From a virus, in the IMG/VR virus record IMGVR_UViG_3300042466_001218, positions 1-22,781 of that record: a stretch of DNA of 22,781 nt; one strand, given 5' to 3'. Made by a program: the position numbers and the translations under genes. Position 1 is the stretch's first letter, and every line of letters begins with the position of its first letter. Below are positions 10,680 to 22,406 of the stretch, in pieces. Below the pieces are notes generated by a model. The model did not search any database. It had not been told where the DNA came from and saw only the letters and a program-made list of their open reading frames with translations.

Positions 10680-11375
10680 TCATCCCTCAAAAATAACGGA
10701 GTGCTGCACCAGCCGCCGCTCGATGGCGTCAGCCGTCCCCTGATCCACCCCCTTCCCCGCCGCGATCTTCGCCGCCAATCTCCCCGGCCCATGCTGCGCC
10801 GTCCAGCAGGTCAAATGCAGGGATGTATTCCGGTGCTCCAGCAGCTCAAAAAGTTTCTCCGCGAAGGCCTCCGTGAACTTCACCTCAGCCAGATCATCGA
10901 TCACCAGCAGCGGCACATTCCGCAGACTGGCCAGAGTTTTCCGCGCATCATCCCGGTCTGCCCCATCCAGCATGGCCGCATTGAGCGCCAGAGCGCGCAG
11001 GGCGGCTCCGGTGAGCCATCTGAAGGGGATTGCCGCAGACAGCACCATCAACGCCATACAGTGCGTTTTCCCGCAGCCAGACGGCCCATGGATTCCTAGT
11101 CCCGTTTGCCCCACTTTCGGTAGCCAGACAGCGGCTTGCCGGAGCCGGATCGAAACGGATTCGATTTGGGCGGCTTGGTAGGCTGGCGGGACGATCTTTT
11201 CCCAGGCGTCCCGAAAGCTCCGCGCGGCCTTCGCAGTCGCCTCCTCAAGTGCACGTTTATCGTCGCAGGCCTGGCACAGGCAGGCAAGGCCCGCTAGCAG
11301 CTCACGGCCCAGAAAGATCACCGCCTCGCGGGTCACGGCAACGCCGCAGATCGGACAGGGTGCGGTGCGGGTCAT
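10680..11375 (-). CDS. DnaC/IstB-like AAA+ ATPase, helicase loader
   Basis: The 231-aa protein (start 11375) has an N-terminal zinc-finger-like CPIC...CLCQAC (residues 7-37). The P-loop is GIHGPSGCGKTHC (Walker A at about 97-104). Walker B is LLVIDDLAEVKF, and there are sensor/arginine-finger regions in LTCWTAQ and DAIERRL. DnaC-type loaders deliver replicative helicase to an origin. It lies directly downstream of the replication initiator and overlaps it by ATGA. A start at 11390 (METQS) is also open. The zinc-finger N-terminus resembles that of phage DnaC-like proteins. Confidence 0.85.
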   Translation of the reverse strand: MTRTAPCPICGVAVTREAVIFLGRELLAGLACLCQACDDKRALEEATAKAARSFRDAWEKIVPPAYQAAQIESVSIRLRQAAVWLPKVGQTGLGIHGPSGCGKTHCMALMVLSAAIPFRWLTGAALRALALNAAMLDGADRDDARKTLASLRNVPLLVIDDLAEVKFTEAFAEKLFELLEHRNTSLHLTCWTAQHGPGRLAAKIAAGKGVDQGTADAIERRLVQHSVIFEG

Positions 11376-12106
11376 GCTTTGAGTTTCCATTTATCGGGTT
11401 GGAGTGGTCCGTATTGATTTTCGATGGATGCGGCAGTGGCCGGCTTGGTGAATGGCGCATACCCCAGCGTATGCCAGGAGCGCACTGTGGCTTTCCAGTC
11501 CTTGATGGTCTTGCCCGCGTTCTGCCAGCCGTTGCCCTGCCACTTCCAGAAAGCCGCGGTGCCCTGCGATGGAGCGCATCCGATGGAGATGGCGAATGCC
11601 TCCACCTCCTCCGGCGTGGATGCCTTGGCGATGTGGGTTGGTGGGGTGGCATCGCCACACTCCTTCCCTTCCATGTTCCCTTCCTTTCCATGTTCCTTTC
11701 CTTTCCTTTCCTTATGGCACGCGTGGTCATCGCGTGGGTCACGCGTGGGGCACGCGTTGGAATCCTTATCCAGTATAGGCTCCGGCAGTTCTGAGGCCCT
11801 CTCCTTGTTATTTACGATTTGATGCCGGGAGAACCCCGGAATCCACCCAAATTCACCCGTCTCTGTCGCGTATTTCATAACAAAACCACGCGTGGCCAAC
11901 GCGTGGAGCACGCGTGAAAAGTCCAGTTTATCGTAGGGCAGAATCTGCACCCCAAGGCGGCGAGGCTCCCACTTAAAGCGGCCCTCCCGGTCAGCCGCAC
12001 ACCATAGCCCAGCAAAGGCAATACGCAGTGGCAGCTTGTGTTCCACCTCGGCCTCAAAGAGCCGGTCATGAGTAAAAAACTCAGGCTTGATGGTTCGGAT
12101 TCTCAT
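11372..12106 (-). CDS. Replication initiator/organizer-like protein with embedded iterons
   Basis: The 244-aa protein begins MRIRTIKPEFFTHDRLFEAE, then LPLRIAFAGLWCAADREGRF, and WEPRRLGVQILPYD. This is an N-terminal winged-helix domain seen in many phage replication proteins. A charged, low-complexity Lys/Glu linker (around ERKGKEHGKEGNMEGKE) covers about residues 133-150. The C-terminus (FWKWQGNGWQNAGKTIKDWK) resembles DnaT/DnaD-type tails. Two clusters of 11-bp repeats lie inside its coding DNA, as with the lambda O gene, and the DnaC-like loader follows. It probably binds the repeats to start phage replication. Confidence 0.75.
   Translation of the reverse strand: MRIRTIKPEFFTHDRLFEAEVEHKLPLRIAFAGLWCAADREGRFKWEPRRLGVQILPYDKLDFSRVLHALATRGFVMKYATETGEFGWIPGFSRHQIVNNKERASELPEPILDKDSNACPTRDPRDDHACHKERKGKEHGKEGNMEGKECGDATPPTHIAKASTPEEVEAFAISIGCAPSQGTAAFWKWQGNGWQNAGKTIKDWKATVRSWHTLGYAPFTKPATAASIENQYGPLQPDKWKLKA
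11660..11713. repeat. Polypyrimidine/polypurine tract in the initiator gene
   Basis: About 54 bp of nearly pure pyrimidine on the plus strand, with CCATGTTCC repeated and then TTCCTTTCC repeats, abut the first iteron cluster. In the protein it encodes the Lys/Glu linker. A duplex-unwinding or strand-asymmetric element is possible. Confidence 0.5.
11718..11761. repeat. Iteron cluster 1, four 11-bp direct repeats
   Basis: The 11-mers are CACGCGTGGTC, ATCGCGTGGGT, CACGCGTGGGG and CACGCGTTGGA. CGCGT recurs exactly every 11 bp at 11720, 11731, 11742 and 11753. Because 11 is not a multiple of 3, the repeat falls in shifting frames and gives no repeated peptide, so selection on DNA is the likely cause. 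Confidence 0.85.
11887..11919. repeat. Iteron cluster 2, three 11-bp direct repeats
   Basis: The units are CACGCGTGGCC, AACGCGTGGAG and CACGCGTGAAA, in the same orientation and the same 11-bp period as cluster 1 (CGCGTG at 11889, 11900, 11911). Together with cluster 1 and the pyrimidine tract this forms a candidate origin at 11660-11919. Confidence 0.82.
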
Positions 12107-14304
12107 AGCAGCAAAAGCTGGGATGTGGCATTGGCCAAGTTCTGGCTAGCCTGGTTGAAATAGGACTCCTTCAGCTCCGACCCCACAAAGCGCCGCCCCA
12201 TCTGCAGGCTCTTGTATCCCTCCGATCCGATCCCCGTGAACGGGCTGTAAACCAGCTCCCCGGGATTCGACCACAGCGCCACCGCCCGCTCGATCACATC
12301 GAGCTGCAGCGGGCAGATGTGCCGCTCATCGTTGTTATCCCGCGCCCCGTCCCGGTTCAGCACATTACCTTGGTCCACCGTCATCCACACCGGGCTGGCC
12401 GCTTCCTGCCACCAGTCGATCGGGTAGCTGGATTTATCCTTCGTCACCGGCACCGGATTATCCCCCGGCGTCTTAAAGATCAGCAGGTAGTCCGCGCACC
12501 CCACCCGGCTATTCGTGCTGTCAGAGCACAGCGTCTTGTAGAGCAGGCCATGCGCCTTCGTCCGCTGCATCTCCGTCACCGGGCTTTTCCAGATACAGAT
12601 CCGGCTGTGGAACAGGAAGCCATGCCGCCAAAAGGCCCGGATCAGCTCCCCGCTGAAGTCCTGAAACTCAATCCGCCCCGTCTTCCACTTCGTGCTCAGG
12701 AGGTCCACACAATGAACCGCCACCTCCCGCCCCGGCATCATGATCCGCTTCATCTCCGCGATCAGGATTTCAAAGTGCCTCGTAAACTCTGACAAGTCCG
12801 CGCAGTTCCCCATATCCTGCAGGTCATCCGAATAGGTAAACAAGTCAGCAAACGGCGGCGAGAACACTGAAAAGTGGATCGATCCATCCGGGATCGTCTT
12901 GGCCACCCGCACACAGTCCCCGTGGTGCACCGTCCAGCCCTCGCCCGTCTTGGTTTCGATTTCCGTTTTCATCGTCAGCTTTTTGGTAGTGTTTTCCTTG
13001 AAGGCTTTGGCCGCTTGTTTCATGCTGGTTTGCATCTCTTGGTGTTGAGTGATTTTGCGTTGGATGGATTGGAGGATCGCTCCCTCCGTCGAGGCCTGCA
13101 CGATCAGCGCCCGCACCGGGTGCACCTGCCCGAAGCGGTAGCACCGCCGCAGCGCCTGATAGAAGTCCTCGAAAGAATAGGACAGCCCCACAAAAGCGAC
13201 ATTCCGGCAGTGCTGGAAATTCAGGCCATAGCCAAAGATGCCCGCCTTGCTGATCAGCACCCGCGTCCCTCCGCTGATAAAGTCCAGCGGAGCGCGTTCC
13301 TTGTGGCGCGGGTTATCGCTCCCCTTCACCTCCACCGCGTCAGGGATCGCCAGTTTCAGCTCCTCGCTCTCCTCGTTCGTATTGCACCACACCATCCACT
13401 GGTCCGTGCTCCCGTTCACCGCATCCGCCAGTGCCGCCACCCGCTCCGTCATCGTCATCCGCAGCTCCCGGTGCATCGTCGTAGCCGACAGCGTAGCGTG
13501 CCGGAATAGCTGATCCTCCTCCGCCCCCTCCGCCTCATCCACCTCCACGATCCGCGTCTCCAGATTCAGCCCCGGCAGATCATATCCCGCATCCTCAAAG
13601 CCAATATCCGAAGGCTTGGAAATGCACGCCGCCCAGCTCGCCAGCCACTTCCAGAACTCCCCCTCCGCGTGCTTCTTCAGCCGCCAGTCCCCCGTGTTGA
13701 AGGTGTCATTGATAAAGTAAGTAGCCAGCATCTGCATCGGTGAGCAAATCCCCAGAAAGTCCGCGTGCTGCCCCAGCTCCGTGTAGTCATTCGGTGATGG
13801 CGTAGCCGTGCAGCACAGCCGGTAAGGCGTATCCTTGAATCGCTCCGTCAGCGCCTTCCGCGTCTTCCCCTGAAAGGACTTCAGGATACTGCTCTCATCC
13901 AGCACCACGCCCGCAAACTCGATCCCCTCGAAGTGCTCCAGCTTCTCGTAGTTCGTGATAAACACCCCGGCCCGATCCACATCATCCCCACTGCCCACCA
14001 CCTCCGCCGCAATGCCGAACTTCCGCGCCTCCGCCTCCGTCTGCCTCGCCACCGAAAGCGGCGTCAGGATCAGCACGCATCCCCCGGTATGCTGTGCCAC
14101 CTGATGCGCCCACTCCAGCTGCTGGATAGTCTTCCCCAGCCCGCAGTCCTCAAAGAGCGCCGCCCTCCCCTGCCGGATCGCCCAGCCGATCACGTGTTCC
14201 TGCCATGGAAAAAGCGGCGCAGTAAACGCCCGCGGTTCAAACCCGCACTCCGCCAAAAGGCGTGATTTTGATTGAATAAATTCGTCGTAGTTCAGGTGTT
14301 TCAT
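12103..14304 (-). CDS. Helicase-methyltransferase fusion (SNF2-like SF2 helicase plus N4/N6 DNA methylase)
   Basis: The 733-aa protein has two parts. The N-terminal SF2 helicase has Walker A EDCGLGKT (about 52-59), DESS as the DEAx box (136-139), TATP (166-169) and motif VI RRCYRFGQ (386-393). The C-terminal amino-methyltransferase has motif IV FSPPF (481-485) and motif I FTGIGSEG (689-696), an order typical of beta-class enzymes. The ATG at 14304 has an A/C-rich leader. Phage proteins of this type modify DNA against restriction; no nuclease domain is seen. It overlaps the initiator gene by ATGA. Confidence 0.88.
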   Translation of the reverse strand: MKHLNYDEFIQSKSRLLAECGFEPRAFTAPLFPWQEHVIGWAIRQGRAALFEDCGLGKTIQQLEWAHQVAQHTGGCVLILTPLSVARQTEAEARKFGIAAEVVGSGDDVDRAGVFITNYEKLEHFEGIEFAGVVLDESSILKSFQGKTRKALTERFKDTPYRLCCTATPSPNDYTELGQHADFLGICSPMQMLATYFINDTFNTGDWRLKKHAEGEFWKWLASWAACISKPSDIGFEDAGYDLPGLNLETRIVEVDEAEGAEEDQLFRHATLSATTMHRELRMTMTERVAALADAVNGSTDQWMVWCNTNEESEELKLAIPDAVEVKGSDNPRHKERAPLDFISGGTRVLISKAGIFGYGLNFQHCRNVAFVGLSYSFEDFYQALRRCYRFGQVHPVRALIVQASTEGAILQSIQRKITQHQEMQTSMKQAAKAFKENTTKKLTMKTEIETKTGEGWTVHHGDCVRVAKTIPDGSIHFSVFSPPFADLFTYSDDLQDMGNCADLSEFTRHFEILIAEMKRIMMPGREVAVHCVDLLSTKWKTGRIEFQDFSGELIRAFWRHGFLFHSRICIWKSPVTEMQRTKAHGLLYKTLCSDSTNSRVGCADYLLIFKTPGDNPVPVTKDKSSYPIDWWQEAASPVWMTVDQGNVLNRDGARDNNDERHICPLQLDVIERAVALWSNPGELVYSPFTGIGSEGYKSLQMGRRFVGSELKESYFNQASQNLANATSQLLLL

Positions 14305-14339
14305 TGTTGTGTTGGTGGTGTGATAAGTCAGAAAATAAA

Positions 14340-14368
14340 CCTGCTCCGTGGATAGGAACCGACGCAGG
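14340..14368 (-). terminator. Weak hairpin in the 117-bp gap upstream of the helicase fusion
   Basis: On the minus strand CCTGC pairs with GCAGG around a mismatch and a short inner stem, followed by TTTATTTTC. It may be a weak terminator or a leader structure. The rest of the gap 14305-14421 shows no gene. Confidence 0.35.
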
Positions 14369-14421
14369 TGGATCGGCATTCAGAGGGCCAGTGTCCTCAC
14401 CCTTCCCATCGCTCTCACGGT

Positions 14422-20537: not shown

Positions 20538-21311
20538 TTATGCTGCGGAGCGGTTCTTGGCTACTTCATCAGCCATGAATGACAGGGGAATCTGCTTGGC
20601 GGTTTTGTAGTTATAAACCCGCTCGATGACCCCCGAAAATTCCTTGATCGTGCTTCGGTTTTCCAGCAGCGCGGGATTGATCTTGATCTTGCGGATCATG
20701 GAATTGAAATCAAACTCCGGCACGAACAGGCAGCGGGACAGGGCCTTGATGAAGTTGCAGTTTCTGATGACCGGATGGTTCGGGAAGGACTCAATGACAG
20801 CCATCAGCTTATCTGCATGGTCTGTAGTTATTACCTTGAAGATGCCCTTTTTGACGCGCTCCAAGTGATTGGTGGAGTTTGCGCTTTGGCCAGACAGCAC
20901 CGATGACGCAGCCGCCACCGACATACCCCGGTCAACGTAGCTCTTCAGTATCATGTAGTCAGGGTTCCCGGTGCGGACTTCGCGCTTCAGAGTTTCCAGC
21001 ACCTTCCATGTGCTCCAGTTCTCCTCCTGAATCAGCGGGATACTGGCCTCGATGGTAAGGTCTGTAGCCTCCTGCCCCCATGCGGCGATCCCCAGAGACA
21101 CAGCAGCCTCGCGGCGATGGTGTCCCCAGATGATCATCTTCTTCCCTTGGTGGCTGAACCAGACGATGGGGTGGGACTTCCAGAACCCGTGCTTCTGCAT
21201 GGATTGGATGTAGTTCCGCACCTTCTTAGGAGTGATGGCCTGCTGGTATTCATGCGTTACCAGTGCCCGCAATTCAGCCTGCGTCAGTTGTTTGACATTC
21301 TGCAATTTCAT
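20538..21311 (-). CDS. ParB-like N-terminal domain protein 1 (257 aa)
   Basis: The protein has a ParB/sulfiredoxin-type segment near the N-terminus: KSHPIVWFSHQGKKMIIWGH followed by HRREAAVSLGIAAWG. The GHHRREA motif is the nucleotide-binding/active site of the fold. A helical middle region and a basic C-terminus (IRKIKINPALLENRSTIKEF) follow. Phage ParB-like proteins act as partition factors, nucleases or transcription regulators. It has AAACCATG before the start. No ParA is present in the window. Confidence 0.7.
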   Translation of the reverse strand: MKLQNVKQLTQAELRALVTHEYQQAITPKKVRNYIQSMQKHGFWKSHPIVWFSHQGKKMIIWGHHRREAAVSLGIAAWGQEATDLTIEASIPLIQEENWSTWKVLETLKREVRTGNPDYMILKSYVDRGMSVAAASSVLSGQSANSTNHLERVKKGIFKVITTDHADKLMAVIESFPNHPVIRNCNFIKALSRCLFVPEFDFNSMIRKIKINPALLENRSTIKEFSGVIERVYNYKTAKQIPLSFMADEVAKNRSAA

Positions 21312-21340: not shown

Positions 21341-22156
21341 TTATTTCCGCTGCCGAGCCAGCCTCTTATTGCAATGGTCGATCATTGCCTGATAGGCTGG
21401 CTCAAATTGTTTATCGGTATCACCGATCGTCTCCATAGCCGCGATGGCGCGGGCCACGATCTCCATCCCAAGCGCAGGCCGGTAGCTGACGCGGGGAGGC
21501 TTGGCCTCCTTCTCCGGCGGAGCCACGTATTCAAAGTCAGGCTTCGGGCATGGGGCAGGCTTCCTTGCGTCCTTGATGACAGACGCTGCCTTGTGGACCG
21601 AAACCTCACCGGCCCTGACTTGCTCCAGTAGTTCCTTGGGGGCTTCCCCGGAGGCTACGGCATTGAGGATTACTTTGCCCTCATCGTATTTGGTTTGGCC
21701 GACTCCGGCTTCTTTGGCAGCTTCCTTGCGGGTCAGGATTGGGGCCGGAACGCTTATGTCGATTTCGACAGAAGCGTTTGATTTACCCGGTGCGGTTTGA
21801 CCGTGCGCCTGCCGCTCCTTGGCTTGAGCCGCAATAATCGCCTCCTTCTTTGTCGCAATGCTGATCTTATCAATGTCAGCCAGGTTCCGCCGCCCGCCTT
21901 GGTTGTCGAGCATCCAGAGCATGACGGCGTTCCGGTCTGGATAGTCAGCCGTGACGATGTGGTTGATCTGATACCCGATCTTGTTCCGGGTGCAGATGTC
22001 GAAACGGTTGTGACCGTCTGCGATCAATCCCTGCCACAGGATGATCGGCGAGGTGCATCCGTCCTTGAGGATTAGGGCTTCCAGTTTGGCGAACTCATCA
22101 GCAGCCAGAGGTGGCAGCAGGTCGCGGAATTCAGGGTCGATGATCGGGATGGACAT
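21341..22156 (-). CDS. ParB-like N-terminal domain protein 2 (271 aa)
   Basis: The protein has the opening IIDPEFRDLLPPLAADEFAK, then ILWQGLIADGHNRFDICTRN with the DGHNRF motif of the ParB N-terminal domain. A helical linker (ATKKEAIIAAQAKERQAHGQ) and a proline/lysine-rich C-terminus follow. The start at 22156 is preceded by ACAAACCACACC and by a sigma-70-like promoter at 22169-22196 that contains a control-site copy. It resembles the first ParB-like gene in fold but not closely in sequence. Function could be partition or DNA binding. Confidence 0.72.
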   Translation of the reverse strand: MSIPIIDPEFRDLLPPLAADEFAKLEALILKDGCTSPIILWQGLIADGHNRFDICTRNKIGYQINHIVTADYPDRNAVMLWMLDNQGGRRNLADIDKISIATKKEAIIAAQAKERQAHGQTAPGKSNASVEIDISVPAPILTRKEAAKEAGVGQTKYDEGKVILNAVASGEAPKELLEQVRAGEVSVHKAASVIKDARKPAPCPKPDFEYVAPPEKEAKPPRVSYRPALGMEIVARAIAAMETIGDTDKQFEPAYQAMIDHCNKRLARQRK

Positions 22157-22168
22157 GGTGTGGTTTGT

Positions 22169-22196
22169 GTAATACGGCGTAGTAAATGAAAGTAAA
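22169..22196 (-). promoter_or_regulatory. Candidate promoter of the ParB-like gene 2
   Basis: On the minus strand TTTACT (-35), 16 bp, TATTAC (-10). The spacer contains nearly the whole control-site copy at 22173-22187, so binding there would block the promoter. The -35 lies 6 bp from the RHH gene's stop. Confidence 0.5.
22173..22187. promoter_or_regulatory. Control-site copy 1 (ATTTACTACGCCGTA on minus strand)
   Basis: It differs from the copy at 22458-22472 only at the central base (C for G). TACG/CGTA forms an inner inverted repeat. Confidence 0.65.
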
Positions 22197-22199
22197 GGC

Positions 22200-22406
22200 T
22201 TAGTTGCCTGAATTTGTGCGGCGGCGGCGGGCAATCTCCTTGCAGAGGATTTTCTGGAGGACTTGGGACTTGTTCATGCCGTCCTCAGCGGCAAGGCGAT
22301 CCAGTTCCCGATCCATTCCGGGCCGCATACTAGCGCTGATGCGGATGCGTCCGGTTCCGTTTCGTTTTACGTTTGGGTTGGGGTTTTGCTTAGGTGCTTC
22401 AGGCAT
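22200..22406 (-). CDS. Ribbon-helix-helix protein 1, CopG/Arc-like (68 aa)
   Basis: A basic N-terminus (PKQNPNPNVKRNGTG) is followed by the RHH domain: RIRISASMRPGMDRELDRLA, then EDGMNKSQVLQKILCKEIAR. The strand RIRISASM contacts DNA and the helices dimerise. The C-terminus is arginine-rich. It lies opposite a second RHH gene (22504, plus strand) across the control region. These pairs commonly run phage or plasmid switches. It has no Shine-Dalgarno, only an AT-rich leader. Confidence 0.8.
   Translation of the reverse strand: MPEAPKQNPNPNVKRNGTGRIRISASMRPGMDRELDRLAAEDGMNKSQVLQKILCKEIARRRRTNSGN

Follow-up and report, generated by a model that had tools for sequence, protein, structure and literature searches.

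The window, by which we mean the whole stretch of DNA that was analysed, comprises one IMG/VR record in full (22,781 bp) and contains HK97-type phage genes. Its minus strand carries a gene for a 244-residue protein, and residues 1–115 of this protein match the PHROG 16167 'replication initiation protein' profile (E 6.2e-37). The next gene encodes a DnaC/IstB-like helicase loader and overlaps the 3' end of the initiator gene, in agreement with the earlier note on this DNA, which had recognized a replication-type gene upstream of a DnaC-like loader. A loader or DnaB helicase gene also follows the initiator homologue in HK639, Mx8, F10, Louie and P27. Elsewhere on the minus strand, two adjacent ParB-like ORFs lie at 20538–21311 and 21341–22234, with weak PHROG matches. 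The main features are listed here.

10680–11390, minus strand: DnaC/IstB-like helicase loader gene (PF01695, 2e-6; PHROG 50 DnaC-like helicase loader, 7e-11)
11372–12106, minus strand: initiator gene, 244 aa (PHROG 16167)
11660–11713, minus strand: GGAA-repeat, nearly pure purine tract, the proposed unwinding/strand-capture element (from sequence, family codon selection and stability)
11719–11757, minus strand: array 2, four iterons in 11-bp steps, in linker codons (from sequence; lag-11 test, p about 0.001)
11888–11915, minus strand: array 1, three ACGCGT (11910, 11899, 11888) in 11-bp steps, codons 64–73 (from sequence; codons frozen in 40 homologues)
11891–11920, minus strand: predicted recognition helix, codons 63–72, overlapping array 1 (from the secondary structure of the AlphaFold2 N-domain model)

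The coding strand of the initiator gene passes through array 1, then array 2 and then the GGAA tract, and about 150 bp separate the two arrays. Array 2 reads ACGCGT, ACGCGT, ACGCGA and ACGCGT, at 11752, 11741, 11730 and 11719, respectively, the third member being TCGCGT on the plus strand. The 11-bp period of both arrays places the iterons in helical phase, a property shared with the iteron plasmids of the Rep_3 type. The seven CGCGT[G/T] cores that the earlier note had described, spaced by 11 bp in two clusters of the same orientation, are all recovered (starts at 11720, 11731, 11742 and 11753, and at 11889, 11900 and 11911), while the ACGCGT core that it had assigned to them fits six of the seven and fails in the TCGCGT copy at 11730. 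ACGCGT occurs six times in the whole record, and all six copies lie within the two arrays. The GGAA tract, which sits beside the four-copy cluster, was not in that note.

Selection on the DNA of the arrays

The seven copies occupy all three codon phases and therefore do not create a peptide repeat, as had been supposed from their period. The further supposition, that the DNA itself is selected, is supported by recoding and by comparison of homologues. When the initiator peptide was recoded with synonymous codons according to the phage codon usage, the five observed 11-bp pairs were reached in 0 of 20,000 trials (null mean 0.02), and the same 20,000 recodings never attained the six observed ACGCGT (null mean 0.43). 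Among 40 non-redundant array-bearing homologues from IMG/VR, the codons TCA, CGC, GCG, ACG and CGT at positions 64, 65, 69, 72 and 73 are each kept in 39–40, with Ser TCA and Thr ACG present in all 40. At the invariant N-domain positions outside the arrays, identical amino acids of the same homologues use most of their synonyms. Codons that are frozen within the arrays and variable elsewhere indicate selection on DNA; the comparison that the earlier note had proposed, of repeat conservation against codon conservation in homologous genes, was thus carried out and came out strongly in favor of the repeats. The arrays of the window are under selection at the DNA level.

One of the peptide patterns used to collect the IMG/VR homologues overlaps array 2, and this set could be biased for that reason. 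A separate scan of genome contigs employed only peptide patterns outside the arrays. By our own count, 38 of its 80 loci have at least two ACGCGT within the gene, and these 38 belong to Alpha-, Beta- and Gammaproteobacteria, Acidobacteria and Planctomycetes. Outside the arrays, the homologue loci contain almost none of the array words, and ACGCGT is rare there.

A purine tract in register with changing iteron words

The tract adjoins the last iteron of array 2 and begins about one iteron length past it, with purines on the coding strand and pyrimidines on the plus strand. It is strand-asymmetric and not AT-rich, at about 51% GC. No AT-rich unwinding element stands out near the arrays; the most AT-rich 50-mers of 11–13 kb reach 60% AT and are located at about 12.07 and 12.95 kb. 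By nearest-neighbour energy, the tract is a local minimum of stability; only 4.4% of the 50-mers of the record are less stable than the window tract, and the median tract of the family is less stable than 88% of the windows in its own gene.

The family survey covered 382 genes from several phyla, 223 of them non-redundant by k-mer content. With a tract defined by at least 34 purines per 40-nt linker window, a value above the maximum of 33 found anywhere in the N-domain, 184 of the 223 homologues possess one. The tract codons favor purine synonyms across the family (Arg AGG, 0.84 versus 0.10; Gly GGA/GGG, 0.96 in the tract versus 0.45; Glu GAA, 0.88 versus 0.47), and the bias is also seen in the non-ACGCG classes. 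The median number of GGAA is 7 per 62 nt in the tract versus 0.31 in the N-domain, mostly with one every 5 nt. The low-complexity linker of the KEGKGREGN type, which occupies residues of about 130–157 in the window protein and is found in many initiators of phages, is apparently imposed by the sequence of the DNA tract, and protein similarity in this region should therefore not be taken as evidence of functional peptide conservation.

The form of the tract varies. In actinophages the unit is GGGGAACA, arranged as (GGGGAACA)n, or CAGGGAA, and AT-richer forms such as (GGAAAA)n also occur. HK639, Louie and IFTN1 carry a GGAATCAG repeat on the opposite strand, after the 11-bp array. The CTGATTCC repeats of HK639, Louie, Acinetobacter and Vibrio 36E38 phages were considered as a second, unrelated iteron type, which was rejected since in HK639, Louie and IFTN1 they are GGAATCAG on the other strand. 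Three loci of HK639-type phages (L084, L091 and L089) have GGAA repeats on the strand opposite to that of the window tract, after an 11-bp array.

Immediately before the tract, lag-11 periodicity is significant gene by gene (p<0.01) in 132 of the 184 tract-bearing genes, as compared with 2–4 in control stretches and 3 at lag 12. Over the 60 nt that precede the tract, the lag-11 self-match amounts to 0.49 for the ACGCGT class and 0.47 for the other genes, whereas controls lie at about 0.25; an echo is seen at lag 22. The iterons are in register with the tract; in the CTCA class, 98 of 110 occurrences fall in a single register modulo 11. The words themselves vary by clade, namely ACGCGT, CTCAnTGA (in enterobacterial and some actinobacterial prophages), CGACGA/CGTCGA, GGGAAGCA and TCGCGA. 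These class labels derive from simple word patterns, and 33 of the 184 tract-bearing genes have no assigned word, although 14 of these still show lag 11.

The two arrays share their words. Exact array 2 words were observed 474 times in the array 1 region, versus 15.7 expected from the words of other classes, and 60 times versus 5.4 when the ACGCG class was left out. Array 1 is individually significant in just 56 of the 184 tract-bearing genes, and is absent in some members. On a tree calculated without the array 1 columns, the iteron class changes 29 times, versus 92 times with shuffled labels; the word is therefore inherited, yet has been switched several times, with support limited by the short alignment. 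In one locus (L290, 3001–3900), both ACGCG arrays are present together with a GCATGTGCATGCACGTG array adjoining the tract, and it is possible that this locus is an intermediate in such a switch.

Homologues that lack the repeats, which the earlier note had named as evidence that would refute its proposal, do exist insofar as L007–L009 contain no ACGCGT. These genes nevertheless retain the purine tract, and L007 has a 10-bp GTGCATGCAC array at the array site, of which L009 has a degenerate version by inspection.

We combined these properties into a composite signature, in which a purine window contains four or more GGAA and is preceded by a lag-11 self-match of at least 0.42, and scanned both strands of all loci. 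The 155 kb of initiator genes gave 119 matches and the 2,525 kb of remaining sequence gave none; without the lag condition, the matches were 174 and 2, respectively. The sole match in the window record is at 11711, and the scan found no second tract with an array there.

The initiator protein and comparable systems

The initiator is composed of an N-domain (residues 1 to about 100), a linker (about 110–157) and a C-terminal helical domain (165–214). An AlphaFold2 model of the whole protein, calculated with 26 close relatives, was poor overall (pLDDT 63); its C-terminal helical domain was predicted with confidence, and the linker came out disordered. As its PDB search was uninformative, it was replaced by a model of the N-domain with 64 diverse N-domains, which is a confident winged helix (pLDDT 95.3, pTM 0.87). 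From the winged helix-turn-helix topology of this model, we infer that helix 63–72 is the recognition helix. That it contacts the iterons is likewise an inference, without binding data.

A Foldseek search of the PDB with the N-domain had among its top hits MarR/ArsR regulators and the RepA-type initiators 4pt7, 5kbj and 4pql, at E values of 0.01–0.1 and none below 0.001. At the sequence level, the N-domain profile matched no PDB chain. Models of phage proteins named 'replisome organizer' and 'replication protein' match the N-domain at 1e-13 to 1e-4. The initiator has no match in Pfam-A at E<=0.01, and thus none to an O-protein model, RepA_N (PF06970) or Rep_3 (PF01051). The C-terminal parts are interchangeable among the homologues; L157, for example, ends in a DnaT domain (PF17948, 5e-14). 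In alignments, close relatives differ in the C-terminal domain after the tract and keep the N-domain, the arrays and the tract, as if the tract marked the junction for C-terminal domain exchange.

In-gene origins with iterons are already known, and the design proposed here would be a variant of them. The lambda origin lies inside O and combines iterons with a purine-asymmetric, AT-rich region (PMC7466680, PMC5043065). The resemblance to lambda O that the earlier note had pointed out holds for the layout: like O/ori-lambda and the O genes of Stx phages, the window has a putative mid-gene origin with at least four iterons, then a region with purines on one strand, and an adjacent loader gene. 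It does not extend to sequence membership, the window initiator having no match to any Pfam O-protein model. The lambda iterons measure about 18–20 bp, unlike the 11-bp, one-turn iterons of the window; moreover, the asymmetric region of the window consists of GGAA repeats with a GC content of about 51%, whereas that of lambda is AT-rich, and only the window has a second array, in the codons of the DNA-binding domain.

The Rep protein of pSK41, a plasmid initiator of the RepA_N type, has a winged-helix N-domain of ~120 residues, a linker encoded by the origin with its four boxes, and a host-specific C-terminal domain that contacts the primosome; the Rep boxes lie in the part of rep that encodes this dispensable linker (PMC5703833). 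The window initiator likewise has a predicted winged-helix N-domain, a linker encoded by proposed origin DNA with four boxes, and C-terminal domains that differ within its family. It nevertheless has no sequence match to RepA_N and only a weak fold match (4pt7, 5kbj and 4pql, E 0.02–0.1, among MarR/ArsR hits), and the boxes are AT-rich in pSK41, in contrast to the 11-bp, GC-containing iterons and GGAA tract of the window. In SPP1, direct repeats within the initiator gene gp38 (oriL) lie beside an unwinding element, and the phage supplies loader and helicase (PMC6316719). The window shares the direct repeats within the initiator gene, next to a proposed unwinding element, and the phage loader; on the other hand, the unwinding element of SPP1 is AT-rich, and SPP1 has oriR as a further origin, while the window record has no second array with tract. 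Finally, the RepA proteins of the mycobacteriophages Miko, Rachaly and Jeeves are necessary and sufficient for autonomous replication, with the origin inferred in or next to repA and no repeats found outside repA (Wetzel 2020; PMC7157519). The location of the inferred origin is alike, and the mycobacteriophage members of the present family are annotated as 'RepA-like replication initiator', but the membership of those RepA proteins in the family is not established.

A proposed origin within the initiator gene

We consider it very likely that the arrays and the GGAA tract make up a replication origin contained in the initiator gene itself, although there are no binding, melting or replication data, and we found no such experiments for this phage or its family. 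By analogy with lambda O, SPP1 gp38 and pSK41 Rep, the winged-helix N-domain would bind the 11-bp iterons; with a single iteron per helical turn, all bound units would face the same side of the DNA. The core would be array 2, located in the linker, whereas array 1, located where the predicted recognition helix is encoded, would be an additional binding array and would probably assist in wrapping or looping. Initiator molecules packed together would strain the adjoining GGAA tract, which may then open to allow the capture of one strand, and the interchangeable C-terminal domain and the DnaC-like loader would then bring in the replicative helicase. The cumulative GC skew of the whole record has its minimum near 15.2 kb and not at the initiator gene, and is uninformative about the origin because skew in such a contig follows gene strand.

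Another possibility would be that the arrays are operators, through which the initiator binds within its own gene, blocks transcription and thereby controls its abundance or incompatibility; the true origin would then lie at another site. Plasmid iteron arrays also serve control by handcuffing and autoregulation, and a similar role here would suit array 1, which is apart from the tract and missing in some members. However, the arrays are at least 190 bp inside the gene, away from the promoter; array 2 is phase-locked to a DNA-selected GGAA tract that an operator does not need; and the flanking DNA has no second tract with an array. We regard this explanation as unlikely.

The origin reading could also hold with a different role for the tract, which might recruit a factor via a non-B structure, a G-quadruplex or triplex, rather than simply unwind. 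A canonical four-run G3 motif is present in 62 of 184 tracts and a G2 motif in 175 of 184, and the (GGGGAACA)n tracts of actinophages would be in line with this idea. Four G3 runs are, however, missing from the window tract and two thirds of the others, and the existence of forms such as (GGAAAA)n leaves GGAA, and not a G run, as the constant unit, which makes a non-B role quite unlikely.

ACGCGT is a palindrome and the MluI site, and a 758-aa ORF directly upstream of the initiator gene (12103–14379, minus strand) combines an SNF2/helicase part with an N4/N6 DNA methyltransferase part; the repeats might thus be methyltransferase or nuclease sites, for instance of this neighboring enzyme. We consider this very improbable, given that the word shifts by clade to CTCAnTGA, CGACGA and GGGAAGCA, mostly non-palindromic, while spacing and place stay, and that ACGCGT is rare elsewhere in the loci. 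Finally, array 1 encodes part of a conserved helix, DFSRVLxAL, with conserved S, R, A, T and R, but the view that these residues are required in the protein, the repeats being merely incidental, is hardly tenable, being refuted for codon choice by array codons frozen in 39–40 of 40 homologues with all synonyms used elsewhere, by synonymous shuffles that never reproduce the array, and by L007/L009, whose peptide differs at the array site.

Returning to the in-gene origin, we lean slightly toward the broader view that a single ancient design is common to phages of Proteobacteria, Actinobacteria, Acidobacteria, Planctomycetes and others. It would comprise two one-turn arrays, read by a recognition helix whose own codons contain one of them, phase-locked to a GGAA tract that replaces the AT-rich element. 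The iteron word and the protein would drift together, so that the binding protein would be tied to its own coding sequence, and the purine tract, not AT content, would be the constant opening signal. Our search of the open literature, which did not extend to subscription papers, found nothing on the 11-bp design, the iteron-word switch, the array in recognition-helix codons or the GGAA tract, and nothing on ACGCGT iterons or polypurine origin tracts.

The DNA encoding the recognition helix appears to be the target of that same helix, and in this family the pairing of iteron words with binding domains constitutes a natural code. We know of no reason for the purine strand asymmetry of lambda. 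Its opening region has almost all purines on one strand (PMC5043065), and the conservation of such asymmetry without AT-richness over hundreds of phages makes the question testable. The composite signature, in turn, locates a candidate origin in a very large set of uncultured phages. Among the survey records, a small E. coli 'plasmid' (6.2 kb) with a homologue turned out to be a linear fragment of an assembly. Two homologues of Pseudonocardia oceani KRD185 (L153 and L154), on the chromosome and on plasmid pPoc2, have equal match statistics.
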